Shown piece after piece: positions 10,824 to 60,921 of a DNA stretch of 64,000 nucleotides. Numbering within the stretch: the stretch's first letter is position 1; each line of letters opens with the position of its first letter. Origin of the DNA: Lachnospiraceae bacterium NK4A179. GTDB taxonomy: Bacteria > Bacillota > Clostridia > Lachnospirales > Lachnospiraceae. The DNA lies in the NCBI GenBank assembly GCA_000421045.1, contig ATWC01000001.1, positions 186,001 through 250,000 of the forward strand, read 5' to 3'. Both the position numbers and the translations under genes were made by a program. The notes under the pieces are model-generated. The model had not been told where the DNA came from and ran no database searches. It was given only the letters and a program-made list of their open reading frames with translations.

Positions 10824-10851
10824 ATGTTTTTCCCCTTTTCTCTATATTTAC

Positions 10852-10869
10852 ATCCGGACAGCTCCGGAT
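10852..10869 (-). other. Hairpin between pilB and pilC
   Basis: Stem atccgga / tccggat with a 4-base loop in the 54-bp gap. No T-tract follows, so it is not an obvious terminator. It may be an RNA-processing or stability element; no direct evidence. Confidence 0.35.
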
Positions 10870-10877
10870 ATAATATC

Positions 10878-12629: not shown

Positions 12630-12654
12630 TTCTGTATGTAGCCCCCTTGAATTA

Positions 12655-13856: not shown

Positions 13857-13886
13857 TTGTCATAACTACTTATTTTAATGTATAAT
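13857..13886 (+). promoter_or_regulatory. Promoter of the rightward YfhO pair
   Basis: TTGTCA, 18-base spacer, TATAAT. Its -10 overlaps an in-frame ATG at 13878, which rules that ATG out as the start of the following gene. Confidence 0.78.
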
Positions 13887-13925
13887 CCGTTATGCTTTAA
13901 AAAACCTAACCATCGCGGAGATATC

Positions 13926-16655
13926 ATGGAAACGACAACAAAAAAAAACTCTGAATACAGGCAGACCGGCACAACCTGTCTGATTGCCTTTGCTGCCGGC
14001 ACACTGCTTTTTGCAGCCATACTCATTATTAACGGATTTCTTTTTACAAACGGTGGAAGCTTATATTACGGCGATAACTTTTCACAGTATTTCGCATTTA
14101 TAAAATCCTTTCTGAGATCCGTAACCGGTAAACAGAGTTTTGACTATTCATTTTCAATGTATGCAGGATCAGGAACGATACTGACGTATGTCTATTACTG
14201 CTTAAGTCCTTTTAACCTGCTTTATCTTATTCCCGGTATTTCAATAATCACTTTGACTCATATCATAGCATGTCTGAAAGCAGGACTTGCAGCCGCTGCT
14301 TTTGCATTCTACTGTGTTCATTCCCTGAAGAAACCTAAGTCTGTTGCGATATTCTTTTCTATTTGCTACTGTCTTTCCTCATGGGCAGTGACAATGAGCA
14401 TCAACTGCATGTGGGCTGACTCTCTTTATGTGCTTCCTATGCTTATAGCAGAAATAAATGATCTTATAAACATTTCCGTTACTCCCGCTGATGAGGCTCC
14501 CTCAAAAGATTCACTTTCGCCTGCCTTAAGAAATTATCTTCTTCTCACTCTGCTCTATGCTTACCTGTTCCTCACAAATTTCTATATGGGATTTATCTGC
14601 GGCACATTCACCTTTCTTTATTTTATACTTAATCTGGTAACTACCTTTGAAAAGAAACAATCCCTAAAGAAAGCGGGAATATATATATCTTCAGTCATCC
14701 TTGCCGCCTGCATCGATGCGGCTTTCCTGCTTCCTGCAGGAGCCTTTCTTTTTGAACACTTAAAAGGCGCGCAGGCAGATCCTTTTACACAGCTTTCAGC
14801 ATCTATCCCTGATCTGTTAAGCACTCTTTTCGCCGGATCATCAACAGGCCTTGACGGCGGTCTGCCTTATCTTTATTCAGGACTCCCTGTTCTGATGATC
14901 GCACCATTTTATTTCTTCTCTAAGAAGATCACTGTCAGGAAAAAATTAACGGCAGGAATACTGCTTTCGTTTTACCTTTGTGGCATGCTTTCAACCAAAC
15001 TTTATATGTTTTTACATGCCTTCGATAATCCTAATTATTACCCTTTCCGTTTTTCACCCTGCATTGTTTTTCTTATAACGGCTCTTGCTGCTTCAGCCGC
15101 AGACAAGATCACAGACTTCAAAAAGAAAACATTTATCATATACTCCGTTTCTCTCATACTCGCATACTCATTCCTGATCATGTTCCAGGACGTAAGCGGA
15201 TTTAAATCCGTAAGCAGAGATTCGCTGATCTTAAACGCACTGTTCATCACATTATGGCTCGCACTTTATCTGTACAGAAACAAAGAAAAAATTTCTAAAT
15301 ATCTGGTTCCCGCATGCATTATCATACTCAGCCTTGAAATGATATGGAACGCATCAAACAATCTCACTTCTTTTGCAGGCAAGGCCGGGAATGATTCACT
15401 CAGGATAAGCAGCAGTACATTTGATGAATGGTATGAAAATGAAGAAAAAACAGTAAATAGTATAAAAGCGACAGACAACAGCTTCTATCGTGTTCACATC
15501 AACGGCGAGCGTTGCTTTAACGGAGCCTCTCTTTTTGACATAAACACACTTACAAGTTTTGCTTCATATGATGATATAAAGCAGCGTACAGCTCTCGGGC
15601 ATCTTGGTATAAGCAACGCATATCACATGATATTTGATCTGAGCAGCAGACCACTTCCGGAAATGCTCCTTGGCGTAAAATACAAAGCCGATATAAAAGG
15701 ATACAATGGCATATCTGAGAACAGCATTAGTTTAAACAACTACAGTCTTCCTGTTGCATTTACGGTCAGCAGTGATATTGCCTCATATACTTCCGGGGAT
15801 GATCCGTTCGAAAACGAAGAAAATCTTGTAAAATGTATGACCGGAAAGAGTTACGATCTGTACGAAACGATTTCCCCAAACACAGTACTCACATCAGAAT
15901 TCAATACAGACGTATACCCCTTCGGAAATCTCACAGCATATGAAGTAAAGGCAAAAGATGTCACTCCTTCATGGATATGTTATTCAATACCTAAGAAAGA
16001 AGGAAAAAAAGCTCTTGCCTATTTCCATACAAACGGAACATTTTTCAACTCCGGAGCTCCTGAATTCGCTAATGGCTTCAGTGGGCTTTCATGTCCTGCA
16101 AACATATCTTCGGGCGCAGTTATAACGGCATCTGATGATTGCTTCTTTAACAAAGAGAATCTGAACGACAAAGAGGGGACCGAATATACCTACATCCCCA
16201 TTACGATCAATAATGCAGGATTTACTTCTTACACAGTACAGTATATTAATTTTGTATACGCCGATGATTCATTGATCCCTGAAATATATAACGATCTGCT
16301 TCCCGGGGCTATAAACCTTACATCATATACAGACTCACACTTTGAAGGAATTGTTACTGCCTCAGAAGATCGCCCTATTCTTTTCACCTCCATACCTTAT
16401 GATAAAGGATGGACTGCATATGTAGACGGAGCGCCCGCAAAAATATACGTTACAACCGACAACGCTTTCTGTGCTCTTCCCCTTTCTCCGGGCGAGCATA
16501 AGATAATTTTCGCTTATGAAACTCCCCTTTCATCCGAAGGGAGTTCCATAAGCGCTATCGCCGCTGTTATATTGCTTCTCATAATACTTGCCGGCAGCAA
16601 AAAAAATAAAAAGAGTAAAACAGCAGACCAGACAGAGGATAACAATAATGAATAA
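13926..16655 (+). CDS. YfhO-family membrane protein (probable glycosyltransferase)
   Basis: 909 aa. The ATG at 13926 follows GCGGAG with 6-base spacing; an in-frame ATG at 13878 lies inside the promoter -10. About a dozen transmembrane segments fill residues 20-480; the C-terminal half (about 490-870) is extracytoplasmic and ends with the YfhO hallmark IPYDKGWTAYVDG and one last helix. The N-terminal loop has YGDNFSQYFAFIKSF. Bacillus YfhO and relatives are GT-C-fold proteins linked to sugar decoration of lipoteichoic acid; the substrate here is unknown. It overlaps the next gene, a paralogue, by 8 bp, indicating translational coupling. Confidence 0.85.
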   Translation: METTTKKNSEYRQTGTTCLIAFAAGTLLFAAILIINGFLFTNGGSLYYGDNFSQYFAFIKSFLRSVTGKQSFDYSFSMYAGSGTILTYVYYCLSPFNLLYLIPGISIITLTHIIACLKAGLAAAAFAFYCVHSLKKPKSVAIFFSICYCLSSWAVTMSINCMWADSLYVLPMLIAEINDLINISVTPADEAPSKDSLSPALRNYLLLTLLYAYLFLTNFYMGFICGTFTFLYFILNLVTTFEKKQSLKKAGIYISSVILAACIDAAFLLPAGAFLFEHLKGAQADPFTQLSASIPDLLSTLFAGSSTGLDGGLPYLYSGLPVLMIAPFYFFSKKITVRKKLTAGILLSFYLCGMLSTKLYMFLHAFDNPNYYPFRFSPCIVFLITALAASAADKITDFKKKTFIIYSVSLILAYSFLIMFQDVSGFKSVSRDSLILNALFITLWLALYLYRNKEKISKYLVPACIIILSLEMIWNASNNLTSFAGKAGNDSLRISSSTFDEWYENEEKTVNSIKATDNSFYRVHINGERCFNGASLFDINTLTSFASYDDIKQRTALGHLGISNAYHMIFDLSSRPLPEMLLGVKYKADIKGYNGISENSISLNNYSLPVAFTVSSDIASYTSGDDPFENEENLVKCMTGKSYDLYETISPNTVLTSEFNTDVYPFGNLTAYEVKAKDVTPSWICYSIPKKEGKKALAYFHTNGTFFNSGAPEFANGFSGLSCPANISSGAVITASDDCFFNKENLNDKEGTEYTYIPITINNAGFTSYTVQYINFVYADDSLIPEIYNDLLPGAINLTSYTDSHFEGIVTASEDRPILFTSIPYDKGWTAYVDGAPAKIYVTTDNAFCALPLSPGEHKIIFAYETPLSSEGSSISAIAAVILLLIILAGSKKNKKSKTADQTEDNNNE

Positions 16656-19359
16656 ACGCATCATTTTGAAAAGGACATATCCTCTTATAGCAGCTTTTAT
16701 CACTGCTGCGCTTTTTATCATCACACTTACTTTTCTGGGTATTACAGGATCAGGAAACTACACCATTATGTATGGCGACCTGTACGCTCAGTATATGGCC
16801 TTCATCAAAACCTTCTTAAGAGCATTAAAGGGTGAGAGCGGTTTCTGGTACTCGTTCTCTCTTTATCTGGGTTCGGGCACTGCGCTCACCTATGCATATT
16901 ACTGCATAAATCCTTTTAACCTCCTCTATCTGATCGAATCCATCCCGTTTCCCGTGATGACCTATGTGATCATCTGTTCAAAGATATCACTTGCTGCAGC
17001 CTCATTTGTTTATTTTGAAAAGAAGGCATTAAAAAACGAAGGATTCTCTTCGGTTATATTTGCTGTTTGCTATGCTTTAAGTACCTTTACTGCAGCGCTT
17101 TATATACACATCATGTGGCTTGATGCTCTGTATATACTTCCGTTCCTTACCTATCTTACAATGAGAGCTGCGGGAGCAATTAAAGAAGAAAACAAAAAGA
17201 GCTGTAAGTATCCTTTTGCTGCGCTTACTCTCACTTTCGCATACCTTTTTATAACAAACTTTTATATGGGTTTTATCGTAGGCGTGTTTGAGGCACTGAC
17301 ATTTTTCCTTTCATTTTTCAGGCACTCTTATAATACCGCGGCAGAAACTCTAAAAACACTTTTACGCAAGGGGCTAGCCTATGCAGGAACTGTCATCCTC
17401 GCAGCAGCTATGTGTTCTGCATTTCTTATACCTGCAGCATGGTTTATCTATAGTCACGCTGCGCCTGATAATTTTGAATTTACACAGCTCTATGCAACTA
17501 TCCCTGACATAATCAACTCCATGTTCATAGGTGAAATGCCTCATCTTGACAATGATACACCTTTTCTATATTGCTCACTTGCTGTACTTCTCCTGCTTCC
17601 ACTCTTTTTTAAGATGAAAAGCATTTCCAAAAGAGATAAATACCTTATAGCTTCAGCATTTGTTTTTTATCTTCTTTCAATGCTTATACTTCCCTTTTAT
17701 AAATTTATGCATGCATTTGACTATCCCAACTGGTACGCATACCGGTACAGTTTCTGCATCATATTCATGATGACCGTATTATCCTCACTTGCTATACGCG
17801 AATTGAAAGAACAGCGTATCACTCTGATATCGATCCCTGTAGTATTATATATAGTCCTCTATTCATTTATGATTCCCATAACCGCAAACAGAGCAGCCCC
17901 CAGCCAGATCACCAACTCAACCGGCAACTTTTTTATTAATTCAGCCTATCTTCTCTTATATCTTGGACTTTTTCTTCTTTACAAAAAGTCTTTTTCAAAA
18001 CTTAGGATCATCCTGCCGGCCTGCTTTGTTATTGCGGTATATTCTGAACTTGTGCTCAATTTCTATTTATGTGATCTAAACAGAGCCGGAGATGCCGTAT
18101 CTGAACTGGCCTACAGACAATGGTATGAAAGTGAACGAGATGCATTAGCCAAGATAAAAGCTAACGACGATACTTTCTATCGCATAAGCGTAGACAACGA
18201 AATGCTAATAAACTCACCGGCTGCCCTGAACTATGCCGGCCTCAACACGTTCTCATCCTCCGATGACTATCCGTTAAGAAAAGCACTGTTCTCTCTTGGA
18301 ATTGTTGCTCCAAACAGAGCAGTAACCGAATCCGGCTTCACCCCGGTAACATACATGCTTACAGCCACAAAATACCGGATAAAAAAGTATGACGAAACCG
18401 CTCCCGAAAACAGAGATAAACCTCCCATTCCCGACGATGTGATAGTGCCTGCGGAAATCAGCAGATTAGATTATGCGCTGCCTCTTATTTTTATGGCAGA
18501 TGATGACATTCTTTCATATTCTTTTACCGATGACCCTTTTATAAATCAGGAAAAACTGATAAGCAGTCTTTCCGGCCATGAGTATACTTTTTTTTCTCCG
18601 GTTGAAGAAGAAGACTTTATTATCAGTAATTACAACACAACTATTGATGAGAAAAAAGAAATTACCATTATTTCCAAGAAAAGTAGCCTGGACTCAACTC
18701 TTTTTTACTCCTTTTTGCGTCCTAAACAAGACGGCAGAACACTATTAGCATATTTCAAACAGGACGGAAGTAATGCAAAGGCCGATACCTTCTGGATCAT
18801 ATCAAGAGCATTAGGTTGGTACGAAACAAGAGATATCCAAAGCAGCGGCATTGTTGAAAGTACATTAGATGCCGAACAAGCCCTGGTATTTGTTCCGGAT
18901 GCCAACCCCGACGCCGAATATGAATGTATAGGTATATATACATACAGAGAAAACGTCAGCAAGGATTATTGCAGTGATATCCTCTTTTATGACTATAATG
19001 AAAACGGGACCTTGAAAAAGGCTTATGATGACCTTATAACCGGCGGAATTCAAAATGCCGTGTTCAATAATGACACAATAAAGGGCACTATAACCACTCA
19101 AAAAGATCGAAACATTATGTTCACTACCATCCCTTATGATGAAGGCTGGCATATCTATTGTGATGGTCAGGAAATTGAAAAGATATCAACCGTTGAAGGC
19201 GCATTCCTGGCAGCATCCCTTCCGGAAGGTACACATGAACTTGAGCTAAAATACATTGCTCCATTTGCAAAAGAAGGACAGATAATATCGATTGTAGCTA
19301 TTGTAATATTCCTGATATGTGTTGGTATATCGTTTATCAACAAAGAAAAGCGCAAATAA
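16648..19359 (+). CDS. YfhO-family membrane protein, second of tandem pair
   Basis: 903 aa. The start at 16648 overlaps the stop of the preceding gene and has AGAGG 9 bases upstream. It is a clear paralogue of the preceding protein: MYGDLYAQYMAFIKTF and FWYSFSLYLGSG near the N-terminus, a multi-helix block, then an extracytoplasmic domain ending in IPYDEGWHIYCDG and a final transmembrane helix. Same predicted role, transfer of a sugar from a lipid carrier to a surface polymer. Ends at a strong terminator (19382-19411). Confidence 0.85.
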   Translation: MNKRIILKRTYPLIAAFITAALFIITLTFLGITGSGNYTIMYGDLYAQYMAFIKTFLRALKGESGFWYSFSLYLGSGTALTYAYYCINPFNLLYLIESIPFPVMTYVIICSKISLAAASFVYFEKKALKNEGFSSVIFAVCYALSTFTAALYIHIMWLDALYILPFLTYLTMRAAGAIKEENKKSCKYPFAALTLTFAYLFITNFYMGFIVGVFEALTFFLSFFRHSYNTAAETLKTLLRKGLAYAGTVILAAAMCSAFLIPAAWFIYSHAAPDNFEFTQLYATIPDIINSMFIGEMPHLDNDTPFLYCSLAVLLLLPLFFKMKSISKRDKYLIASAFVFYLLSMLILPFYKFMHAFDYPNWYAYRYSFCIIFMMTVLSSLAIRELKEQRITLISIPVVLYIVLYSFMIPITANRAAPSQITNSTGNFFINSAYLLLYLGLFLLYKKSFSKLRIILPACFVIAVYSELVLNFYLCDLNRAGDAVSELAYRQWYESERDALAKIKANDDTFYRISVDNEMLINSPAALNYAGLNTFSSSDDYPLRKALFSLGIVAPNRAVTESGFTPVTYMLTATKYRIKKYDETAPENRDKPPIPDDVIVPAEISRLDYALPLIFMADDDILSYSFTDDPFINQEKLISSLSGHEYTFFSPVEEEDFIISNYNTTIDEKKEITIISKKSSLDSTLFYSFLRPKQDGRTLLAYFKQDGSNAKADTFWIISRALGWYETRDIQSSGIVESTLDAEQALVFVPDANPDAEYECIGIYTYRENVSKDYCSDILFYDYNENGTLKKAYDDLITGGIQNAVFNNDTIKGTITTQKDRNIMFTTIPYDEGWHIYCDGQEIEKISTVEGAFLAASLPEGTHELELKYIAPFAKEGQIISIVAIVIFLICVGISFINKEKRK

Positions 19360-19381
19360 ATTACAGAATTCAGGTAATCTC

Positions 19382-19411
19382 AAAGCCCCGGTGAGACCAC
19401 CGGGGCTTTTT
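19382..19411 (+). terminator. Terminator of the rightward YfhO operon
   Basis: Perfect 12-bp stem aaagccccggtg / caccggggcttt with a 4-base loop, followed by further T residues. 22 bases after the stop codon. Confidence 0.92.
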
Positions 19412-19806
19412 ATGTCGAAACTCCGATATAAGTTAATCTATTGAAACAGTAACTAAACTGACCCACACCGTGTAGCCTTGCCTGACGGTGGTACCGTTTG
19501 TCATGCAGTTCTTTCGATAATGCCCCAAATTTTCTTTTTTCCCGGAATCACTCACACGCCACATCCATTTGGCGTTGCTCGCTCGGCCCGCCAGCCTTGG
19601 TGGCCCGTCCCTGGTGAATCTATGCATTTTTGAGAACTGCTAGTCTCACTTAAAAACCGTCAAACAAGGCTACATGGTATGGAAAATCTGCTGTATATAA
19701 CAAGCAGGAAGATTTAATTATTTATATCTACCCAAATCCAACGAATGATGTTTTGGCGGCAATGAGGAAGAAGACAGCTATTACTAAAGGTTTTAAGGCA
19801 TAAAAA
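19412..19806. other. Gene-free stretch between two terminators
   Basis: 395 bp with no gene I can support. It holds an imperfect palindromic element (19463-19682), then an open frame of about 45 codons ending at 19803 (…YIYPNPTNDVLAAMRKK…, stop TAA). That frame has no start codon with a ribosome site and is closed upstream, so it looks like the decayed 3' end of a lost gene. Confidence 0.5.
19463..19682. repeat. Imperfect palindromic element, MITE- or REP-like
   Basis: The left arm 19463-19489 and right arm 19656-19682 are inverted copies matching at 23 of 27 bases. A second inverted pair, gcagttct (19505-19512) and agaactgc (19633-19640), lies inside. Read inward to outward, both arms would encode TV(R/K)QGY(T/M)VW. 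The 120-bp centre has no obvious gene. Whether it is repeated elsewhere cannot be seen from this window. Confidence 0.5.
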
Positions 19807-19842
19807 AACCGCCCCCAAGTGTTATCACACTCGAGAGCGGTT
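19807..19842 (-). terminator. Terminator of the major pilin gene
   Basis: Outer stem aaccgc / gcggtt and inner stem agtgt / acact, followed on the minus strand by TTTTTTTA. It is 33 bases beyond the pilin stop codon. Confidence 0.85.
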
Positions 19843-19875
19843 AGTTTGTTTAGATCTTTACTTCAAATCTTCTTA

Positions 19876-20340
19876 TTAGTCAACAGAGATGCTTGAAGAT
19901 GTTGAAGAGTTGCGGCCCTTTGAACCAGAAGCATCTGTACCAGGAAGCCATACTGATACTGAGTTAGCATCCTTAACCTGAATGCTGATTGTTGTAGCGT
20001 TGAATGACTTAAGGCTGCTTGAAACCTCTGCACCAGATGCTACAGCAAGGTTCTCCTTCATTGCTGAGCCGATTGCAGGCTGTGAAAGAGCTGTTGTTAC
20101 GTCAACTGCGCTTCCAAGGTTTGTAAACTCTGTGTTGTAAGTTGAAGCATCGTTAACCTGAGGATCAGCAAGAGCTGTAACAAGAGCTGTCTGAACGGTT
20201 CCGCAAAGCTGTGTATCAGATGAAACCTTTGACTTCTCGATGTACTTGATCAGCTGAGGTGCCATAACACCAACCAGGATAGCCATGATTGCGATAACGA
20301 TGATCAGCTCTACCAGTGAAAAACCTTTGTTCTTTCTCAT
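19876..20340 (-). CDS. pilA: Major type IV pilin
   Basis: 154 aa. Leader MRKNKG, cleavage after Gly6, then FSLVELIIVIAIMAILVGV, a near-consensus pilin helix with Glu5. The mature protein (148 aa) is rich in Ala, Ser, Thr and Val, with a single Cys (Cys46), so no disulphide. Standing alone with its own strong promoter, a long leader, an AGGAG ribosome site and a terminator, it has the monocistronic layout expected of the most highly made subunit. It is flanked on both sides by YfhO-type membrane proteins, which raises the possibility of pilin or surface glycosylation but does not show it. Confidence 0.92.
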   Translation of the reverse strand: MRKNKGFSLVELIIVIAIMAILVGVMAPQLIKYIEKSKVSSDTQLCGTVQTALVTALADPQVNDASTYNTEFTNLGSAVDVTTALSQPAIGSAMKENLAVASGAEVSSSLKSFNATTISIQVKDANSVSVWLPGTDASGSKGRNSSTSSSISVD

Positions 20341-20382
20341 TTCTTTGTTCTCCTTTTCTTTTTTAAAATGTTTTTGTTTTTT

Positions 20383-20413
20383 GACAGCCCCCTTTTTTAT
20401 CTGACCGGCTGTC
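20383..20413 (-). promoter_or_regulatory. Hairpin in the pilA 5' leader
   Basis: Stem gacagcc / ggctgtc around a loop holding a GGTCAG..AAAAAAGGG tract, about 45-70 bases ahead of the pilA start. No T-tract follows on the pilA strand, so it is more likely an mRNA-stabilising or regulatory leader hairpin than an attenuator. Confidence 0.4.
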
Positions 20414-20431
20414 TTATTTGTTTGTAACTAC

Positions 20432-20460
20432 AATATACCACCGGTTAAGTTGTCAGACAA
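20432..20460 (-). promoter_or_regulatory. Promoter of the major pilin gene
   Basis: Minus strand TTGTCT, 17-base spacer, TATATT, with TGG before the -10. The layout is nearly the same as the prepilin-operon promoter at 5729-5757 (same TTGTCT, same spacing, same GGTAT core). Leader of about 85 bases. Confidence 0.75.
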
Positions 20461-20545
20461 TACGAGTTTATGACAGGTTTTTTTTAGTTCATGTCAAAAT
20501 AACGTATTTTTTCACTTTTTTATCAAAAACCGTACATCTTTCAAT

Positions 20546-23140
20546 TCATATTTGTTTACAAGCCTTCTTTTTTCTACATTCAGACATAAACAACATCAGC
20601 CAGATAAACAAGCCTGCAGCAGCACAAACAGGCGCCATATCAGATCCCGGCGCTGTATATACCATTTTCACTTCCGATACGCTTTCATTCAGCCTCACAG
20701 CACAGAATGCATTTCCAAAGGCCGGTAACACCATGCTTTCAGCGCCATCCAGATAAACCTTCCATGAAGGATCATACGGTATTGAAAAAAACATTATTTT
20801 CTTATCAGTATCCGAGGGCGGTACAGCTTTAAAACTTGCATCAGAATACTCTGTAACCTGTGCAGAGCCTTCATTCAATTCCCTATATACAGAATCAAGG
20901 ACTTCTTCATCTTCAGAAGCAAAATATACTCCCGTATACCTGAATTCTTTTCCCGCACTATCCCGGTCTATCAGTCTGATCTGCTCAGTCTGATGATCAT
21001 CCCATGACTCCGTCTCGATCACAGCCGATGAAAGTGCTATATTCCTGGTCCCGTCTCCTTTTCTGTCATTATCGGAATATAATTCCACATCCGACACTTC
21101 CCCGCTTATCGAAGTTGCATTAATACCGCCGGGCGAAGATGTATCTTTTGAGGATTTGGAGAAATAAACATAATTATGTTCCTCTCCCGTTCCGGCAACA
21201 TAAAATATTGCCCCGCAGGGCGTATCATCTTTTTGAGGCGTTATTATAATACTTCCGTCCTCATTAGCAACAACTGTCAGATCTGAAGGAGCAACCGATA
21301 TCGGCTGCATTTTTCTAAAGACTGAAACCTTTCTACCCAGTAATGATGTCAAAAATGCATTTTGAACCTCAAAAGGATCAGTATGTTCCGGTACAGCATC
21401 CGGATCAAGTACTGAATCGTCAGCCATAAACGCTAACGGCAGGACCCTATCATTTATTTCTTCCTGATGGATTCCCTCCACTCCTTGGTCAGAATTTCCT
21501 CTGAACGCAACCGAATACAGCATATCTGTCACATCTGTGCTGCCCTCATTGCCTATAGAAAAAGGAGTCATATTAATTCCCATTTTGAACATAACAGACT
21601 GGTAGGCACTGTTTCCCCCGGAAAGAAAAAAAGTCTGTGCAGGATAGCCATATCTTGCTCCCTGATTCTGCATCACCCCCGAAAGCATTATCCTGTGGAA
21701 GTTTCCTTTATCAACATATTTTTCTGCTTCTGCATACATCTCATCTGCAGCTTTCCATGCATTAGTATATGTTGCATCTTCAACAGCACCACAATCAGAA
21801 AAAACTATACAAAAAGCAGATATACACTCTATAATAGCAAGCAGTGGCAAACAGATGTTCCTTACATTTTTATTTTTCAACACGAACAGAAACACGGTCC
21901 AGGTTATGATAAGAATTGCATTTCCTGCCGCAAAAACAGCTTTTCCACCAAAGGATGAAACATCTGATAATACTACGCATATAATTTCAAAAGGTATGAT
22001 CAAAAGAAACAAAAAAGCCGCTTTTTTAGACAGAATCAATGTATTAACGGTTCTAGCAGCTGCAAAGACACACACAAAACTTATCAGTATCGAAAATCTC
22101 ACTGTATATCCGTCAGGTCTGTTGAAAACATGAAAAAACAGGTATAAAGGATCGATATAAATTGATAAAAACAGCATTAAAAGAGCTACTCCTGTTAAAG
22201 CCTTCTCTCTTTTTCCTATTTTTCTGTTCAGGAAATACAAAGGAGTAAGAAGCAGTACGGGAATACCGCAATACAGTGCAGGTACCTCTTCATAAAATAT
22301 GCTTTTTCTCCCCCAGAAAAAAGAAGCGATCAGATCTCCCGGATTAACCATCCTTTCAGCTACTGAAGCATTCCATTGCCCGGCAGTATCGGAAAGCAAC
22401 CTGGAAATTGCAGGGAAAAGCACTATCATCGAGATCAGAATTGCAGAAGCCACAGATACAAAATATTTTAAGATCATTTTTATTCCCATTTTTCGGTTTT
22501 CCCCGTCATATTTAAGAATAAGCCAGCCAATAAAACACAGGAAGGTAAATATTCCAATAAGAAAACCACTGTAAAAATGAGTGATAAAAACAAGCGCATA
22601 TGCTGCTGAAAGTACCGTCATCCTTCCCCCAGTCAGGAAATAAGCAAGTATTAAAGCCATAAAAGGAAGGAGCCAGACTGTATCAGCAAGGCATATATTC
22701 TGAAGCATCATTGCCTGGTAGCCGGAGAATGCATAGCATAAAGAAAGAACAACAGCATATATATCATCGGTATGACAGTAAATCCGAATGAACAGATACA
22801 TAAAGAAAGCCGAAAGGCCGGTCTTGACTGCCATCATGAGGATCAGCGCTATACGATCAGAGCTGACAAATAACGTTATCAGATTCACCGGACTATAAGC
22901 ATAAAACGCATAGATAAGCGTCGTATTCATGCCAAGCCCGATTTCATCACTGTAAGTTAAATCTTCTCCGGAAAAGATCTTTCTGGTAAACATTCTTATC
23001 ACAGGAAGTACCTGTTCCGTTGAATCATTAAAAAGAGCCCAATCCTGCCCGGGAAACAGCCGCATGATATAAAGGGCCGCAATAAACATTAAAACAGCCG
23101 CGGCAAAGATCATAAAAGCCGAAGCATATATTTTTTTCAT
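20546..23140 (-). CDS. YfhO-family membrane protein
   Basis: 864 aa from the ATG at 23140 (MKKIYASAFM); a TTG at 23164 in frame is a possible earlier start. N-terminal helix, then the loop DSTEQVLPVIRMFTRKI equivalent to the YfhO entry loop, around twelve transmembrane helices to about residue 440, an extracytoplasmic domain with IPYDPSWKVYLDG near residue 790, and a C-terminal helix with a short Lys/Cys tail. Forms a tandem pair with the next gene upstream, 28 bp apart. No terminator is visible in the 200 bp before the pilA leader. Function in sugar transfer is inferred from family. Confidence 0.83.
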   Translation of the reverse strand: MKKIYASAFMIFAAAVLMFIAALYIMRLFPGQDWALFNDSTEQVLPVIRMFTRKIFSGEDLTYSDEIGLGMNTTLIYAFYAYSPVNLITLFVSSDRIALILMMAVKTGLSAFFMYLFIRIYCHTDDIYAVVLSLCYAFSGYQAMMLQNICLADTVWLLPFMALILAYFLTGGRMTVLSAAYALVFITHFYSGFLIGIFTFLCFIGWLILKYDGENRKMGIKMILKYFVSVASAILISMIVLFPAISRLLSDTAGQWNASVAERMVNPGDLIASFFWGRKSIFYEEVPALYCGIPVLLLTPLYFLNRKIGKREKALTGVALLMLFLSIYIDPLYLFFHVFNRPDGYTVRFSILISFVCVFAAARTVNTLILSKKAAFLFLLIIPFEIICVVLSDVSSFGGKAVFAAGNAILIITWTVFLFVLKNKNVRNICLPLLAIIECISAFCIVFSDCGAVEDATYTNAWKAADEMYAEAEKYVDKGNFHRIMLSGVMQNQGARYGYPAQTFFLSGGNSAYQSVMFKMGINMTPFSIGNEGSTDVTDMLYSVAFRGNSDQGVEGIHQEEINDRVLPLAFMADDSVLDPDAVPEHTDPFEVQNAFLTSLLGRKVSVFRKMQPISVAPSDLTVVANEDGSIIITPQKDDTPCGAIFYVAGTGEEHNYVYFSKSSKDTSSPGGINATSISGEVSDVELYSDNDRKGDGTRNIALSSAVIETESWDDHQTEQIRLIDRDSAGKEFRYTGVYFASEDEEVLDSVYRELNEGSAQVTEYSDASFKAVPPSDTDKKIMFFSIPYDPSWKVYLDGAESMVLPAFGNAFCAVRLNESVSEVKMVYTAPGSDMAPVCAAAGLFIWLMLFMSECRKKKACKQI

Positions 23141-23168
23141 AACTTTCTTATCGGTGATCAGCAATTCT

Positions 23169-25769
23169 TCAGTTCTTCTTTCTTAATATCTCAACAACAG
23201 AAAGTATTATCAGCAGTATTATTCCTGTAACAAAGCAGACAGTTCCTGCAAGCCTTCCCTCCGCATCATATATAAGCATGATGTCATGTTCACCTGCAGA
23301 GAGCTTCACCGCAGAAAATGCCCCCGCAAAAGCAGGTTGGATCACTGTTTCCTTTCCATCTACATACATTTTGAAATTTCTGTCATATGGGATTGACATG
23401 AACAATACCTGTCGGTCACTTTGTACGCTTACAGTAGCCGAAATACAATCATCCGAACAGTAATTCTCTCTCCAACCGCCCGATGCAAGTTTATTATATA
23501 CAGCATCAATAGCTTCTTCATCCTGATAAGCCGTAAACATGCCTGTATAGGAAAACAGCGTATCATTCTCATCATAATCGATAAGACGCACACGGAAATC
23601 ATCATTCCCGCCATCTTCCATCTCCAATATAGAAAGCGCTCCTGCTATATTCCTCACGCCGTTACCTTTTCTGTCAGAATCAGATAACAATTCCACATAG
23701 GATGTTTCATCAGCAGAACCAAGAAGTTTTACAGAATCTCCGCTCACCGATCTTGTGAAATATATATAGGCTTTAGAATAACCATTTTTTGGTATGCTTA
23801 TAGTCTCTCCACCCACATTTATCTCATCCGTATTCTGAAACGCCCCACTTCCATCAGAATAAATCACATGATTAAGATCAACCGGTACAATAGTTCTGTC
23901 CGTAGTTTCAACATAAACTTCAGTCTCTTCACCCAGCAATGAAGATACAAGCAGATTCTGATTTACAAAGGGATCGATAGACAGACTTGTTCTGTCAACT
24001 TCAAGGATCTTTTCATCCGCCATGAACCCTATCGGCAATGTCTTATCAACAAACACTCCGTCCCTGTTTCCTACAGCAAGCAGCATATCAGTAAGATCAG
24101 TACCGCCTTGAGGAGAAAGAGAAAAAATCATCATCTGCCTGCCAAGTCTGTACATTGCCATAAGCATATCATTGTAGACCGATGAAGAAAAAATCGTGTC
24201 AGACGGAAAGCCATAAAGAGCCCCCTGGTTATCGAATGTTCCCGTGAGCTCTGTTCTATACAGATTCCCGTTGATATTTCCGGAACCTGCTACTATCTTT
24301 TCTCTTGCAATCCTGTCCTTTTCAATTCTTTCAGAAGTATCCATTATTTCCATCTGACTGTAATAATTCACAGCATTGCTTACACATTCCCCCGCACTGA
24401 GGACAAATACTATCACTCCAAGAGCCACAAAAGTTCCCTTGCTTTTCTTTATACGCGGAAGCAGAAAAACCACACCGGCCCATAAAATGATAAACAGCAG
24501 ATTACCGCATACAATAAACATCACTTTGGAAAAAGACTGTATACCGGATATCTTTGAATATACAAACAAAATCGGAAGGATCGCTGCTGCTGCAGCAAAA
24601 AACAGCTCATAATAATGCCTGCCACGATCTGTTTCATCCATTTCGCGTTCCGTCAGTGTCCTTGATGCCGCAAAAATGCATATAAAATCAAGGAGCAGCG
24701 AAAATCTTGCAGTATAGCCATCAGGCCTGTTAAACATATGCCACATGTCATAAAGAGGGTCGATCGCAAAGGATAATAAAAGGATCGTAATCCCGGCTGC
24801 TGTAGCTATTTTTTCCTTAAGCGGTATACGTTTGTTGACAAAATATACCGGGGCACAGATAAACGGAATAAGGCCACAGTACAGTGCCGGAATATCTTCG
24901 CAGGCGGCATTTCCCCTGCCCCAGAAGAATGAAACGAGTATCCCTACCAGATCGATATTTCTTTCATGAATCTGTTTATTGAATATATCTCCGCCATTTT
25001 CCGTATAAATACAGAGCACAGGAAATATAACAGCCATAGATATCAGTACTGATGTAAGCACTGCCGCTGCATACCCCATGATCAGATCAACAAATTTCTT
25101 TTTTTCAGCCTTTTTATAGCGGAGAATAATATATGCAACAAATACACCGAAAGAGAATACGCCTATGAGAAATCCGGAATAAAAATGTGTGATAAAACAC
25201 AGGGCATAAGAAGCCGAAAGAATTGTAAAACTTCCGTCTTTTATAAATACAAAAAGCGCACACATAAGCAATGGAAGAAGCCATACAGTATCCGAAAGAC
25301 ATATATTCTGAAACATATTAAGCTGATAAGTCGAAAATCCCCATGAAAGAGCCAGTACCACTGCAGGTACCAACTCCGATCTCAGATGCTTTCTTAAAAA
25401 AACATACATAAAAAGTGTGGAAAGACCCGTTTTCAGAATTATCAGCATGCATAATGCCAGCTGATCATCCCGTATGAACAAAAGAATATAATTGACCGGA
25501 CTCATCGAATAAAATGCATAAGACAACGCCGTACGAACACCCATCCCCATCTCATGGCTGTAATACAGAGATCTGCCGGACATCAAGTGTTCAAGGTACA
25601 TACGGCTGATTGGGATGACCTGCTTGGCTGAATCATTGATAAAAGAAAGCCTGCCTCCCGGCATAAGCCCGGATATCCACAAAGCTACAGTCATAAGCAG
25701 CATTGCAGTTGCCCATACAAAAACATATTCCAGATATATGATATTTTTACTTGAAGTCTTATTTTTCAT
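23169..25769 (-). CDS. YfhO-family membrane protein
   Basis: 866 aa, paralogue of the following gene: INDSAKQVIPISRMYLEHL in the first loop, MGMGVRTALSYAFYSMSPVN, many helices to about residue 440, then an extracytoplasmic domain with IPYDRNFKMYVDGKE near residue 790 and a last helix ending in a Lys-rich tail. The two minus-strand YfhO proteins resemble each other more than the rightward pair. It lies 27 bp after a GT-C-like gene, so the whole minus-strand block from lepA to 20546 may be one transcription unit. The ribosome site before the ATG is weak. Confidence 0.83.
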   Translation of the reverse strand: MKNKTSSKNIIYLEYVFVWATAMLLMTVALWISGLMPGGRLSFINDSAKQVIPISRMYLEHLMSGRSLYYSHEMGMGVRTALSYAFYSMSPVNYILLFIRDDQLALCMLIILKTGLSTLFMYVFLRKHLRSELVPAVVLALSWGFSTYQLNMFQNICLSDTVWLLPLLMCALFVFIKDGSFTILSASYALCFITHFYSGFLIGVFSFGVFVAYIILRYKKAEKKKFVDLIMGYAAAVLTSVLISMAVIFPVLCIYTENGGDIFNKQIHERNIDLVGILVSFFWGRGNAACEDIPALYCGLIPFICAPVYFVNKRIPLKEKIATAAGITILLLSFAIDPLYDMWHMFNRPDGYTARFSLLLDFICIFAASRTLTEREMDETDRGRHYYELFFAAAAAILPILFVYSKISGIQSFSKVMFIVCGNLLFIILWAGVVFLLPRIKKSKGTFVALGVIVFVLSAGECVSNAVNYYSQMEIMDTSERIEKDRIAREKIVAGSGNINGNLYRTELTGTFDNQGALYGFPSDTIFSSSVYNDMLMAMYRLGRQMMIFSLSPQGGTDLTDMLLAVGNRDGVFVDKTLPIGFMADEKILEVDRTSLSIDPFVNQNLLVSSLLGEETEVYVETTDRTIVPVDLNHVIYSDGSGAFQNTDEINVGGETISIPKNGYSKAYIYFTRSVSGDSVKLLGSADETSYVELLSDSDRKGNGVRNIAGALSILEMEDGGNDDFRVRLIDYDENDTLFSYTGMFTAYQDEEAIDAVYNKLASGGWRENYCSDDCISATVSVQSDRQVLFMSIPYDRNFKMYVDGKETVIQPAFAGAFSAVKLSAGEHDIMLIYDAEGRLAGTVCFVTGIILLIILSVVEILRKKN

Positions 25770-55356: not shown

Positions 55357-55396
55357 CGCCTGACATAAAATCAATACGTAAATATACGTATCATAT

Positions 55397-55581
55397 GATA
55401 GCGCCCCATCTCTCCGGACTGACATGCAGTCCCTTTCAGATGACAGTGATACGGGTATTTCCCGCATCCCCAGGCAGACGGTAACGGATCCTGTCCCCTT
55501 CGGCGGCCAGCCCTTTCTTCTGCGATCAACCTTTACCGTAATCGTCCCGCAGGATACTTTTGCTTTCCGCAACCTCTATCT
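55397..55581 (-). promoter_or_regulatory. Lysine riboswitch (L box)
   Basis: On the minus strand the aptamer begins AGATAGAGGTTGCG and closes with GGAGAG...GCTATC (P1 stem gatag / ctatc). Inner landmarks of the L box are present in order: AGTA, AAAGG, GCCGAAGGGG, CTGGGG, ACTGTCAT. Followed by a terminator and dapA. An open frame crossing it is not coding. Confidence 0.93.
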
Positions 55582-55594
55582 TTATTAATTAATC

Positions 55595-55687: not shown

Positions 55688-55716
55688 TTGACAAATCAGT
55701 CAGATTGAACGATTAT
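55688..55716 (+). promoter_or_regulatory. Probable promoter of the riboswitch-controlled pilin
   Basis: TTGACA, 17 bases, GATTAT; a better -10 (TATACT at 55716) would give an over-long 22-base spacer. Correctly placed ahead of the cyclic-di-GMP aptamer. Confidence 0.5.
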
Positions 55717-55732
55717 ATACTTAAGAAAAAAA

Positions 55733-55812
55733 CTTAGAGCAAAACCGGTTAAAGCCGGCGACGCAAAGCTAAAGGGCCTTATCCCGATCAGGATGGCAGC
55801 CAGCTGCAGCAA
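55733..55812 (+). promoter_or_regulatory. Class I cyclic-di-GMP riboswitch (GEMM-I)
   Basis: GCAAAACCGG-loop-CCGGCGACGCAAAGC, then GGGCC, a short helix (tcccgatcaggat) and GATGGCAGCCAGCTGC follow the GEMM-I core in order (GCAAA-CC...GACGCAAAGCC...GGCC...GGNAGCNGG.TGC). It lies upstream of a type IV pilin gene, a known setting for cyclic-di-GMP riboswitches. Confidence 0.9.
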
Positions 55813-55840
55813 TTGACATATATGTTTCGCTAGAACTTCT

Positions 55841-55874
55841 ACAAGCTGCCGCTGGAACAAGCGACAGCTTGTTT
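55841..55874 (+). terminator. Expression-platform hairpin of the cyclic-di-GMP riboswitch
   Basis: Stem acaagctg / cagcttgt, one mismatch, then cgct / agcg, loop ggaaca, followed by TTTGCATT. The 5' half (55845-55855) can pair instead with the aptamer 3' strand (55800-55810) at 10 of 11 positions, so the two structures exclude each other. The T-tract is weak, so termination efficiency is uncertain. Confidence 0.65.
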
Positions 55875-55892
55875 GCATTAAGGAGGCGGAAC

Positions 55893-56471
55893 ATGAGATC
55901 AAACAAAGGTATCACCCTCGTTGAACTTATAGTGGTCATCTGCATCATAGCCATTCTCACCGGAGTTGTGGCTCCTCAGCTTATCAGCTGGATCGAAAAA
56001 GCAAATCAGGTAACTGACCTGAACAATGCAAGAAACATTGCGGATGCACTCTACTTCTATTCTCTGGACGTAGATAATGAACCCCTCCGCTACAATACCG
56101 GTCTGGCCGCTCAAGGCAAAGGGCTTCGCGGATATGTATATGTTGACCGCGATGAACTCAGATGTTCTGATGAGATAGTATGGAATGCACTGGTTGATGC
56201 AGGCATGATACCTTCCACTGTACAGCCCGCTACCCGTTGGAACACCGAACAGGTCTGGCACAACCCCAAGCTTAGAACACGCGCAAGACTGTGGGATACT
56301 TATCAGATAGATTTCTACTTTTTTGAAGACGGTATAATAGATCACTTTACATATTCGGCTGCCGCTGCAGGAAGCAGGACAGCACTTACATCAGACAGTG
56401 AATTGAGCAAACTCTTCGCACACAGGCTCAATTCTACAACAAGGTCTACAGAACTTGGAGAAAGTGAATGA
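55893..56471 (+). CDS. Type IV pilin-like protein under cyclic-di-GMP riboswitch
   Basis: 192 aa from the ATG at 55893, which follows AAGGAGG by 6 bases; an in-frame ATG at 55869 lies in the leader hairpin. Leader MRSNKG, cleavage after Gly6, then ITLVELIVVICIIAILTGV with Glu5. The C-terminal domain (about 40-192) is unlike the other pilins here, Trp- and Arg-containing (PATRWNTEQVWHN), with a Ser/Thr/Arg tail. The position far from the main pil genes and the separate control suggest an alternative pilin made at a chosen cyclic-di-GMP level. It is followed by two GT-C-like genes with their own promoter. Confidence 0.88.
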   Translation: MRSNKGITLVELIVVICIIAILTGVVAPQLISWIEKANQVTDLNNARNIADALYFYSLDVDNEPLRYNTGLAAQGKGLRGYVYVDRDELRCSDEIVWNALVDAGMIPSTVQPATRWNTEQVWHNPKLRTRARLWDTYQIDFYFFEDGIIDHFTYSAAAAGSRTALTSDSELSKLFAHRLNSTTRSTELGESE

Positions 56472-56492: not shown

Positions 56493-56529
56493 GAAACAGG
56501 TCGGATCGTTTTTTGATCCGGCCTGTTTC
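56493..56529 (+). terminator. Hairpin after the riboswitch-controlled pilin
   Basis: Stem gaaacagg-t-cggatc / gatccg-g-cctgtttc, 15 positions, loop gtttttt. No T-tract follows (CAATTG), so it may be an RNA 3'-end stabiliser or an inefficient terminator. Confidence 0.5.
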
Positions 56530-56665: not shown

Positions 56666-58786
56666 ATGGCGGATAAGCTTCCTGTGAATAAAATAAAAAA
56701 GAAGAATCTTATATTGCTATTTCTGCTGTCATTGATAGCAGAAATTTTTCTGTTCAACCTCAGGACTTTTCAAACTGCAATGTATGAAGAAAAGTATCCG
56801 GATACATCATATACATCGGAACTTATTGGCGGCTCCCCGGACAGCAACGGAAATATTGTTATGAATCCCGACGCTGACTGCGTGATCATAAATTATAACG
56901 GTTTCGGCTATCCCCTAAAAAACATCAAACTTGATGCCGAGTGGATCGATGATGTGCGATCAGATCAGACGGAAGATCATGTATGTGTAGCCGAATGTTC
57001 AACCTTTGATGAAGCTTTATTTGAACAGGTGGATGAGAACGGAAACTCCTATTTTGAAAATGCATCGGTAGGAGTAGTAACAGCAAAAATCCTTCATACA
57101 GTAAAAAACTCCCAATATGTTTATTTTGAACCCTTCGGGAATACCCATAAGCTCCATATTGTCCTTTATCCCGCATCAGATAATGCAAAAACTCTTCGTA
57201 TCCATGAATTGATATTCAACGCAGCAAAGCCTTTGGAAATAAAGCCCATAAGGATACTGTTCATATTTGTGATGTTTCTTTTACTTTATTTTTCTCTTAT
57301 CGATCCTTTATTATGGCAAATTGACTGTGTCTCAGTTGACCGGAAAAAAACATGGGCTATTATAACGTTGTTTATCCTTTTTTCCATCTTTTCCGTTTTC
57401 TGGATGACATCAAACAGATCGTTTATGTATAATTCATTTTCTCCATATGCCGCGCTTGTCCGTGCACTATGTAAAGGACAAGTGTACATTGAAGAAGCGA
57501 GTGAAACTGTAAAGAATGTAGAAGATAAAGTTGTATTTTGGCGAAGCGGCAGTACAGAGGTTCTGTTTGACCATGCCCTTCATGACGGAAAATACTACGT
57601 CTATTTTGGATTATTGCCCTGTCTTGTCTTTTATCTTCCGTATCATTTGGCTACCGGAAGTGATCTGCCAAATATTTTTCCCGCACTGTTTTTGCGTTTG
57701 CTTACTGTGGCGCTTACAGGACGTGTGATCTGGCTGTTGATAAAGAAGCACTACCCCAAAACTCCATTTATTCTTTTCTTACTTATGTGGGGAAGCTCTG
57801 TCTCCGGTATGTATATTCCCTTTATGCTATCATCTATGTCATTTTATGATATACCTATTTTTTCGGGATTATCTCTTACTCTTGCGGGAATTTGCTTCTG
57901 GCTCAGAGCAGAAGAAGATAACAATATTATTGTAAAGAGATTAACAGCCGGAAGTATATGTATGGCCGCAGTATCCATGTGTCGGCCAACTATGCTTTTG
58001 TATGGCTTGACGCTGATCTCCATTGCCACATGGAACAGAAGAAAGCTGTTAAAGTCATACGAAAAAAAACATCTATTGAGAATTGCTATATCAATCCTAC
58101 TTCCGTATGTATTTTTTGCCATGATATCCATGAGTTATAATATCATGCGCTTTGGCAATCCACTTGATTTTGGGTCAGCATACAATGCTACGGTTTATCC
58201 TATAAAAGGACGTAGTCCCTTTATTCCTTATGTTGCGTACAGGGCAGTATATGAATATCTGTTAAAACCACCATTTTTAAATTTTAGCTTTCCATATGCC
58301 GCCTTTGGGCAATGGGAAAAGATACGTGATGCCGGCAATATAATGGTTGTAGACTTTGTAATAGGCGGATTGATAACATCTAATCCGTTTACATGGAGTC
58401 TTCTGCTTTCCGGACATTATGCAAAAAGTTTAAAAAACAAGAAGCTATTTATTCCATTACTAAGCTGTGTGCTGATCGCATTTTTCCTGATGGTATATGG
58501 GACTGTATATACAAGCTTTATGTTTACCCGATACACTCTGGAATTCTCTCCTTCATTTATTTTGGGCGGATGTATATTAATGATGGAAATATTCAATGAT
58601 ATATCATCTGTAAATGATCTTTTTGTCCGTCGGATACTTAAACGTAGCATTGCGGTGATTCTTCTTATTTCAATTTTCTGGGGAGCCCTGCAGCTTGGTA
58701 TGGATATAAATGACAGCACGCCGATGAGACTTGGAAATACAGAGCTGTGGTACCGTATAGTATATTCACTGAGAATATTTGGTTAA
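56666..58786 (+). CDS. Polytopic membrane protein, GT-C-like, GKYYVYFG family
   Basis: 706 aa, same length as the next gene. Helix 1 ends AEIFLFNLRTFQT; an ectodomain (about 40-190) has NGNIVMNPDADCVI, closely like DIVLDPDSDCVG in the protein at 25797; then about twelve helices. Signature HDGKYYVYFGLLPCLVFYLP near residue 308 and C-terminal GNTELWYRIVYS. Member of the four-protein family described in this window. Possible sugar transferase using a polyprenyl-phosphate donor; not shown. Ribosome site weak (AAAGAATA before ATG). Confidence 0.7.
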   Translation: MADKLPVNKIKKKNLILLFLLSLIAEIFLFNLRTFQTAMYEEKYPDTSYTSELIGGSPDSNGNIVMNPDADCVIINYNGFGYPLKNIKLDAEWIDDVRSDQTEDHVCVAECSTFDEALFEQVDENGNSYFENASVGVVTAKILHTVKNSQYVYFEPFGNTHKLHIVLYPASDNAKTLRIHELIFNAAKPLEIKPIRILFIFVMFLLLYFSLIDPLLWQIDCVSVDRKKTWAIITLFILFSIFSVFWMTSNRSFMYNSFSPYAALVRALCKGQVYIEEASETVKNVEDKVVFWRSGSTEVLFDHALHDGKYYVYFGLLPCLVFYLPYHLATGSDLPNIFPALFLRLLTVALTGRVIWLLIKKHYPKTPFILFLLMWGSSVSGMYIPFMLSSMSFYDIPIFSGLSLTLAGICFWLRAEEDNNIIVKRLTAGSICMAAVSMCRPTMLLYGLTLISIATWNRRKLLKSYEKKHLLRIAISILLPYVFFAMISMSYNIMRFGNPLDFGSAYNATVYPIKGRSPFIPYVAYRAVYEYLLKPPFLNFSFPYAAFGQWEKIRDAGNIMVVDFVIGGLITSNPFTWSLLLSGHYAKSLKNKKLFIPLLSCVLIAFFLMVYGTVYTSFMFTRYTLEFSPSFILGGCILMMEIFNDISSVNDLFVRRILKRSIAVILLISIFWGALQLGMDINDSTPMRLGNTELWYRIVYSLRIFG

Positions 58787-58800
58787 CTGAAACAAAGACA

Positions 58801-60921
58801 ATGGCAGATTTTAATAAAAAAACACTCATAAAAAAACTGGTTCTAATATTCTTGATCGCAGTCCTGTTGGACATGCTTGTGTTTAATATGCGTTTCTTTC
58901 AGTCGTTATCATATGAGGAAATACCTTTCGGAGCATCACATACACTGAGTATAGAAGGCGGAAATGTTGCTGAAGATGGCACCATAAAACTGGATGAAGG
59001 CTCTGCATCGCTAAAGCTTCATATAGGTAACATAAACGAACATCTGGAAAATGTTCGCATAGATGTTGAAGGTGTAGGCGAAGCTCAATCCTATTCATAT
59101 TATAGTGAAATTGGCGTGTATGACGTAAAAGTGTCTGTTTGGGACGAGGCCCTGCATGAGAAGCTTGGTGACGATGGAATGACTCGGCTTGATAACGGAT
59201 TGTATGAACTAACAGAAAAAAAACTATTACATGCCGTACCTGATTCGCAATATATCTGGCTGGAGACATTCGGAAAAACCAGTGACATAGAGATTTTAAT
59301 AACTCCTCAGCCGGATGATACACGTTCACTTAAAATTATTGATCTTACGTTTAATGCCACCAAACCATTTAAGCTTTCACCATACAGGATATCCGTATCA
59401 TTTTTCATATTATCGATCATATATATATTCCTTTTTGAAAAGTCCATATGGAATGAGGATTGTATTACCTATAAACGTTGGAAAGTGATTCTTCCAATAA
59501 TCGTATTATGTCTGTCAGCAGTTTTTATCTTTACATGGGATTCCTTAAACATGATGCTTAAAGATCCTGCCTTCGATGAATATGCTACTTTGGCTCGAGC
59601 TCTTGCCGGAAAAAATGTCTCACTCGGAAATGCCAGTAACATAGTTAAAGAATTAGAAGGCAGTACCGTTTTCTGGCGCATGGGCAGTAATGAAGTAATG
59701 TTTGACCACGCCATGTACAACGGAAAGTATTATGTTTATTTTGGGATTTTGCCCTGCCTTATATTCTTTCTTCCGTATTATCTTGTCACAGGAAAAGATA
59801 TGATCAATTCTGTTCCTGTTGCCATTTTGTGCCTGACTATAGCTTCGGAACTGTATATTTTGATGGGAATGATAATTCGCAGATACTACAGGAAAACGCC
59901 ATATGCCGCCAGATGGCTGATGACACTTGCCATGATCTGCGGAATGTATCTGCCTCTTTATATGAGCATTCCTGATCACTATATGATCGCAATATCATCC
60001 GGAGTGGCACTTACTCTTGCAGGCGGAATGTGCTGGATGCATGCATGGAAAAATGACGGAAAAGTAATGATACGCTTTCTGGCACTTGGTGCGTGTCTTT
60101 TTGCAACAGTATCACTTTGCAGGCCTACACTGCTTCTTATGGGCATAGCCTGGTTTATGGTCATGATTTATTTAAAGCGTGCAGAAATCGCAAAACTCAA
60201 AAAAAGCGAGTTCATAAAGAGTATGTTTGCAATAGCTATCCCCTATGTGGCTTTTGCATCATTCTGTATGTATTACAATTATATCCGCTTTGATTCTCCA
60301 TTTGATTTTGGTGCAGACAAAAACATGACCACAATACCGTTCACCAGTGGCACACCTTATCTGCCCTATATTATAGCCAGAACACTATATGAATATCTGT
60401 TTAGTATTCCTAAATATACTTCCGACTTTCCGTTTATTATCTACGAAGATTGGAAACAATTGTTTGAGAGTGCCTCTGCCCTGGCTGTCATTAAGCCTAC
60501 CGGAGGAATTTTCATAACATCACCGGTGCTGTGGTGTATGTTGCTCTGCATCGCATATCGAAAAAAAATTCATGAGAAAAAGTTAAGTGTATTGATGCTG
60601 GCTACACTTGCGACAGGAATGTTCCTGATGATCTATGCGGTTGTTTTTACCGGAAATGCCGCAGACAGATATATGATGGAATTCAGTTTTATACTTTTTA
60701 TATGTGCATTTACAGGGATTATGGAGTTTTATGCTGACGCAAAGGAAAAACTTCCCGAAAAAACACTAAACATGATAATGTCGGTTGTGATATGCCTGCT
60801 TCTGATCTCAGTATTTTATGGCTTTTTGCAGCTTTTTACCGGCAAAACGGGCTATGGAATGAAATTCGGCAATCCGGATCTGTATTATTCAATCTATTAT
60901 GATATGAATTTTATGTTATAA
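58801..60921 (+). CDS. Polytopic membrane protein, GT-C-like, GKYYVYFG family
   Basis: 706 aa from the ATG at 58801 (MADFNKKTLIKK); an upstream in-frame ATG at 58747 lies inside the preceding gene. The tandem paralogue starts MADKLP, supporting this choice. Helix 1 ends DMLVFNMRFFQS; ectodomain to about residue 200; signature NGKYYVYFGILPCLIFFLP; C-terminus GNPDLYYSIYY. The loop before the signature (VFWRMGSNEVMFDHAM) is shared almost exactly with the preceding protein (VFWRSGSTEVLFDHAL), showing a recent tandem duplication. Ends 8 bp from a convergent gene, with no terminator. Confidence 0.7.
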   Translation: MADFNKKTLIKKLVLIFLIAVLLDMLVFNMRFFQSLSYEEIPFGASHTLSIEGGNVAEDGTIKLDEGSASLKLHIGNINEHLENVRIDVEGVGEAQSYSYYSEIGVYDVKVSVWDEALHEKLGDDGMTRLDNGLYELTEKKLLHAVPDSQYIWLETFGKTSDIEILITPQPDDTRSLKIIDLTFNATKPFKLSPYRISVSFFILSIIYIFLFEKSIWNEDCITYKRWKVILPIIVLCLSAVFIFTWDSLNMMLKDPAFDEYATLARALAGKNVSLGNASNIVKELEGSTVFWRMGSNEVMFDHAMYNGKYYVYFGILPCLIFFLPYYLVTGKDMINSVPVAILCLTIASELYILMGMIIRRYYRKTPYAARWLMTLAMICGMYLPLYMSIPDHYMIAISSGVALTLAGGMCWMHAWKNDGKVMIRFLALGACLFATVSLCRPTLLLMGIAWFMVMIYLKRAEIAKLKKSEFIKSMFAIAIPYVAFASFCMYYNYIRFDSPFDFGADKNMTTIPFTSGTPYLPYIIARTLYEYLFSIPKYTSDFPFIIYEDWKQLFESASALAVIKPTGGIFITSPVLWCMLLCIAYRKKIHEKKLSVLMLATLATGMFLMIYAVVFTGNAADRYMMEFSFILFICAFTGIMEFYADAKEKLPEKTLNMIMSVVICLLLISVFYGFLQLFTGKTGYGMKFGNPDLYYSIYYDMNFML

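Follow-up and report, generated by a model that had tools for sequence, protein, structure and literature searches.

What signal is read by the RNA leader of a solitary type IV pilin gene, and how could that RNA act on the gene? The question was raised by positions 55,733 to 56,471 of a 64,000-nucleotide stretch of contig ATWC01000001.1 of Lachnospiraceae bacterium NK4A179 (the window), where an initial annotation had proposed a cyclic di-GMP (c-di-GMP) riboswitch of the GEMM-I class followed by a hairpin and an isolated pilin. When the window was scanned with cmscan, a match to the entire RF01051 model (positions 1-87) was found at 55728-55811 on the + strand with a significant score of 54.5 bits (E 7e-08; gathering score 35), and the proposed GEMM-I core was thus borne out. 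It was one of four RF01051 matches in the 3.22-Mb genome. In the alignment, P2 and P3 were intact, and the equivalent of C92 was the C at 55807, within the aptamer 3' strand (55800-55810, +) that also serves as the anti-aptamer partner. The loop of P2 was UAAA, which was present in 2 of the 164 elements examined, compared to GNRA in 150; a GNRA loop at this place makes a tetraloop-receptor contact. A promoter-like site, TTGACA-17-GATTAT (55688-55716, +, 10/12 matches), was located directly 5' of the aptamer, and it counts as weak because the scan gave 3 sites when 3.1 were expected by chance. The Rfam scan of the window found one other element, a lysine riboswitch (RF00168, 98.7 bits, 55391-55586, - strand, opposite in orientation to the pilin) ahead of dapA and dapB, and none at the second pilin gene at 19.9 kb. 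A scan of the genome for the c-di-GMP-II class gave no match, nor did it give any in the controls, so that this negative carries no weight. The cyclic-dinucleotide-sensing RNA switch ahead of the lone pilin is real and probably functional.

The gene downstream (55893-56471, +) was confirmed to be a lone pilin. Its 192-aa product carried the prepilin N-terminal motif (N_methyl, PF07963, 24.3 bits; cut-off 21.2), and its N-terminal half was GspG-like below the cut-off. In a single-sequence AlphaFold model the mean pLDDT was 43, and the N-terminal helix alone was reliable. An inverted repeat 3' of the gene (56494-56528, +) is a possible transcript end, at which the scan called a - strand terminator only; together with the gap before the next ORF, it suggests a one-gene transcript. 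Two large ORFs past the pilin (706 and 724 aa, 56666-60921, +) had no Pfam or NCBIfam match. The same window contained a type IV pilus cluster (66-13716, -) with three prepilin-motif genes, PilM, a prepilin peptidase and, as named from T2SSF and T2SSE matches, PilC-like, PilB-like and PilT-like genes. The lone pilin had been described as unlike the major pilin at 19.9 kb. This held for most of the protein; the N-terminal parts were alike (47% over residues 1-75), and the likeness was confined to them. Four large YfhO-family membrane proteins surround the 19.9-kb gene (13878-25769).

In the genus, 45 RF01051 matches were found in 17 of 35 genomes, and 13 of them, spread over 10 genomes, directly precede a pilin gene. 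This count includes L134, in which the contig breaks off 12 residues into a prepilin-like start; among the 45, L122, L127 and L129 escaped the pattern and were left unclassified, no downstream ORF was called for L115, L119 and L150, and the ORF was cut in L149. Among the family loci examined outside the genus, two were clearly pilin-linked (L154 and L190) and one weakly so (L186). The pilin was a single gene in six wider stretches. By eye, flagellin-like and FliS-like genes were seen near the pilin in L277 and L279 and a FliS-like gene in L278, and a further prepilin-like gene was seen about 2.5 kb away in L279. Two full-length orthologues of the window pilin (60 and 62% identical, clade support 100/100) were both preceded by GEMM-I, at L095 and L096; a third orthologue, a fragment of C-terminal residues 86-191 (L097), was without GEMM-I. 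Within the family, none of the 20 top-ranking pilin homologues (L036-L055) had a GEMM-I beside it, and the pairing appeared only with the genus search. Among the named relatives' contigs, the search gave one weak match, in a Bacilli MAG, without RF01051. The genus-wide pairing lends support to the initial suggestion that the second messenger selects between alternative pili; an exchange with the major pilin lies outside this support. The titles and abstract beginnings returned by full-text literature searches held no report on GEMM-I ahead of lone pilins in this group. The riboswitch class is known; the riboswitch variant and the genus-wide association with pilins are new.

The variant concerns the binding pocket. 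Position 11 of the RF01051 model corresponds to G20 of Vibrio cholerae Vc2, the source of the numbering. At this position (55738, +) the cmscan alignment placed an A in place of G, and the remaining three RF01051 elements of the genome had G. By base 20, therefore, the window element lacks the G20 of c-di-GMP-selective GEMM-I and has the A20 of a 3',3'-cGAMP (GEMM-Ib) riboswitch. Because RF01051 includes both c-di-GMP and cGAMP members, the match leaves the ligand unnamed, and the initial assignment to c-di-GMP stands as to the class and is not secured as to the messenger. A20 should weaken the binding of c-di-GMP. Adenine protonation reportedly enables c-di-GMP binding by cGAMP riboswitches, according to the title of one study. 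In published work, the cGAMP selectivity of Geobacter Gmet_0970 is due to A20 and its A20G mutant is selective for c-di-GMP (PMC6456294), Gm0970 prefers cGAMP approximately 1600-fold (PMC8835794), and the base equivalent to 20 in Cd1 is a selectivity factor and no hard filter (PMC9262584).

The Geobacter precedents, together with a mixture of G20 and A20 in four of seven tandem GEMM-I leaders, argue for a cGAMP riboswitch that owes its ligand to A20, with a cGAMP source that went unrecognised and a mechanism otherwise the same. The search for such a source covered SMODS cGAMP synthases and Hypr GGDEF enzymes, which have Ser at the position of PleD D344 (PMC7288161). The genome gave 33 GGDEF matches (30 loci and 3 more). 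At the Hypr site 26 were readable, none with the Hypr residue (25 D and 1 N); the single N sits in a degenerate domain, and the other 7 had no pattern-readable motif. In G315, which has an A20 element before a pilin, no Hypr residue was found in the 23 readable sequences, all D, from 30 fetched of 55 GGDEF. The same was true of G262 (D in 4/4 GGDEF matches), a genome with two tandem, Rfam-confirmed A20 elements and no G20 pattern match. SMODS was not found in the NK4A179 genome or in any of the 26 genomes with A20 elements, and 3 of 14 controls were positive. The leaders of the two orthologues also count against cGAMP, L095 having G20 and L096 having U20. We consider a cGAMP riboswitch unlikely, though the most probable of the rival readings. 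Since no A20 element was seen alongside a known cGAMP maker in the readable data, weaker c-di-GMP binding is preferred; on this partial and negative evidence, c-di-GMP is the most probable ligand, with a lower affinity than a G20 aptamer would have for it.

Base 20 was found to vary among related leaders. In the 13 pilin-linked elements of the genus it was G in 10, A in 2 and U in 1. The U20 element of L096 (939, minus strand) was otherwise nearly equal to the G20 copy of L095. The second pilin with an A20 leader (L128) was placed elsewhere in the tree, in which deeper forks were weak, and A20 therefore most simply arose more than once. The exact A20 pattern occurred at 33 sites in 29 of 299 family genomes, and the corresponding G20 pattern in 85 of 299; when 30 A20 loci were fetched, an RF01051 match was in place at 24 and absent at 6. 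The 164 deduplicated elements comprised 135 with G20, 27 with A20 and 2 with another base, a set that is no fair sample because nearly all A20 sites were fetched, but only 117 stretches for G20 sites. The genes 3' of A20 elements were mostly surface- or signalling-protein-like by eye. The mixed tandem leaders (L149, L067, L081 and L088), in each of which both members exceeded the Rfam cut-off, are possible two-input or two-threshold leaders. In L001, L126, L139 and L089, GEMM-I preceded similar small proteins of approximately 64-70 aa (...KWNLTERRVQKMCEDG...), a recurrent target that is perhaps DNA-binding. A wider proposal, which we regard as speculative and improbable, is that the GEMM-I pocket shifts between G20, A20 and U20 before pilins and before further surface genes, making like leaders answer to different messengers or thresholds, with mixed tandems acting as two-input gates and cGAMP made without Hypr or SMODS.

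The second part of the question was how the aptamer could act on the gene. The proposed hairpin was present at 55841-55872 (+), without a U-tract, and had an energy of -17.9 kcal/mol when folded alone. Its 5' arm (55845-55855) was found to pair with the aptamer 3' strand at 10 of 11 positions, as claimed, with every pair Watson-Crick, and this anti-aptamer pairing is exclusive with the aptamer. When 55812-55892 was shuffled with dinucleotides preserved, 36 of 3000 shuffles paired with the aptamer 3' strand at 10/11 or better; with a partner allowed anywhere in the aptamer, 32 of 600 did. The fold energy of 55812-55892 was -27.4 kcal/mol compared to -16.3 +/- 2.9 kcal/mol for shuffles, and was equalled in 2 of 500. 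In a constrained fold of the anti-aptamer state, 55871-55880 (+) paired with J1/2 (55733-55742, 9/10). The Shine-Dalgarno (SD) sequence AAGGAGG (55880-55886, +) had been placed 19 bases past the hairpin; it starts 8 bases beyond the last base of the hairpin.

In the minimum-energy fold, the strands within 55821-55840 (+) hid both the SD and the AUG, CUUCU (55836-55840) pairing with AGGAG (55881-55885) and 55821-55830 pairing with 55886-55895. This helix encloses the hairpin, which is stacked upon it, and it favours the other possibility named in the initial annotation, that the effect of the hairpin is on access to the AAGGAGG site. Folding was also followed along the growing RNA. At RNA 3' ends from 55856 to 55892 the anti-aptamer was favoured over the aptamer by 1.8-7.8 kcal/mol, and from 55896 onward the aptamer and SD helix were favoured by 0.6-3.4 kcal/mol. 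The cost of forcing the aptamer rose from 2.7 to 7.8 kcal/mol and then dropped; around 55883 it climbed once more, to 7.7, and this ended when the AUG emerged. The unpaired probabilities of the SD and AUG were 0.29 and 0.05 in the aptamer state compared to 0.47 and 0.57 in the anti-aptamer state. The unconstrained full-length fold also gave 0.29 and 0.05. Since the equilibrium fold hides the SD just as strongly as the aptamer state does, the ligand may make no difference at equilibrium, and a working switch would have to depend on timing, either during transcription or in the loading of ribosomes. When 400 shuffles of 55812-55879 were examined for the barrier, SD hiding and AUG hiding, these features were seen singly in 85, 60 and 25, respectively; SD and AUG hiding coincided in 6, and both coincided with the barrier in none. 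The barrier plus a low full-length cost was seen in 4 of the 400. The shuffles give modest support for a translational OFF switch, and there is no covariation to draw on because the orthologues carry a different platform.

Our leading explanation, in which we place about even confidence, is that an A20-variant GEMM-I riboswitch exerts translational OFF control over a single type IV pilin, with c-di-GMP as the most likely ligand. Without ligand, the 5' arm of the hairpin would capture the aptamer 3' strand and J1/2 would be paired to 55871-55880, so that the AUG would be exposed together with part of the SD. Binding of a cyclic dinucleotide would let the aptamer retain its 3' strand and the hairpin form, and the SD and AUG would be locked in the helix around the hairpin, turning the pilin off. 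Timing during transcription would make the ligand-free state matter. Translation of the pilin is, on these predictions, probably shut down at high signal.

It is doubtful that the window copy is instead a relic or a very weak switch that has lost its regulation along with the terminator, G20 and the GNRA loop. Its A20, its UAAA loop, its missing terminator and the U20 of orthologue L096 would agree with decay, as would an SD that is hidden regardless of how the aptamer folds. Set against these are the 54.5-bit score with P2 and P3 intact, the anti-aptamer and SD helix, which were jointly unusual in shuffles, and the G20 kept in 10 of the 13 pilin-linked copies.

Terminators were scored in the window leader and in 14 further leaders linked to pilins (12 from the genus, L154 and L190). 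An intrinsic terminator, defined by a stable hairpin, a U-tract and a d-score >0, was found in 12 of the 14 (range 0.07 to 45) and was absent from L120 and L123. In the window the best d-score was -15.5, the tail was UUUGCAUUAAG, and the pattern scan called no + strand terminator at the hairpin. The hairpin was discarded as a terminator, and the initial suggestion of termination is unsupported. A transcriptional OFF switch, in which the ligand-bound state lets the hairpin terminate, is accordingly very unlikely, even though the layout is shared with the terminator-bearing relatives and with L002 of the same genome.

In L124 (the same site as L095), L134, L135, L143, L148 and L154, a CUUUGCC terminator 5' arm perfectly complements the aptamer GGCAAAG, including base 20. 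The cost of forcing the aptamer was followed in the window, in 13 of the 14 leaders (not L190) and in L002. In terminator-bearing leaders it climbed to approximately 7-15 kcal/mol when the terminator 5' arm emerged and dropped at hairpin closure, with a small rise in L096 and L121 and an incomplete fall in L138. This rise and fall is what an OFF switch should produce. In the two leaders without a terminator, the unpaired probability of the SD in the aptamer state was 0.00 (L120) and 0.62 (L123). Hiding of the AUG was also seen in terminator-bearing leaders (0.06 in L154 and 0.08 in L134). We read the window leader as one in which, after loss of the terminator, translation became the level at which this logic operates. 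A double duty of base 20, as ligand contact and antiterminator pair, was considered as an explanation of A20 and was unsupported in 96 terminator-bearing leaders at three thresholds (Fisher p 0.33, 0.59 and 1.0). In L090, an A20 leader, the terminator 5' arm GUUUUGCU perfectly complements AGCAAAAC over 8 bases, including base 20. The least probable reading, an ON switch in which ligand frees the SD, can appeal to a class with both ON and OFF members (PMC9262584), but the SD and AUG are predicted to be less accessible in the aptamer state than in the anti-aptamer state.

If translational OFF control is correct, one genus gates a set of lone pilins by GEMM-I, with a sign opposite to that seen at C. 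difficile pilA1, which is under a class II switch, and the window also encodes an MshEN-bearing ATPase of the pilus motor. The PilB-like protein of the window has an MshEN domain (58 bits), a family of c-di-GMP receptors (PMC7096442); were c-di-GMP to stimulate the motor as in MshE while the pilin is off, motor and pilin would be oppositely affected. The orthologous pilin genes display two platforms, terminator and SD-hiding, and their G20, A20 and U20 leaders offer a test of A20 beyond Geobacter, of cGAMP against merely weaker c-di-GMP binding.

Among known systems, C. difficile has class I switches that are OFF and a class II ON switch on pilA1 (PMC6200980). In its class I elements (Cd1, or Cdi-1-3, before flgB) the 3' part of GEMM-I competes with a downstream hairpin to give OFF control, as proposed for the window (PMC6200980, PMC9262584). 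In contrast to those elements, which have terminators, the window leader has no U-tract, an SD helix, A20 and a lone pilin as target. The pilA1 leader (Cdi-2-4) is like that of the window in that a type IV pilin gene follows a riboswitch for a cyclic dinucleotide, and differs in its aptamer class, its ON sign and its major pilin gene. The Geobacter GEMM-Ib elements (Gmet_0970 and GSU1761; before pgcA and in pilMNOP) share the A20 pocket and some pilus-related targets. Unlike the window, those described are ON by antitermination, in cells with a Hypr GGDEF enzyme, none of which was recognised among the 26 readable GGDEF matches of the NK4A179 genome. Vibrio cholerae Vc2 is, like the switch proposed here, a translational GEMM-I switch (PMC9262584); it differs in having G20, another gene and another helix arrangement.
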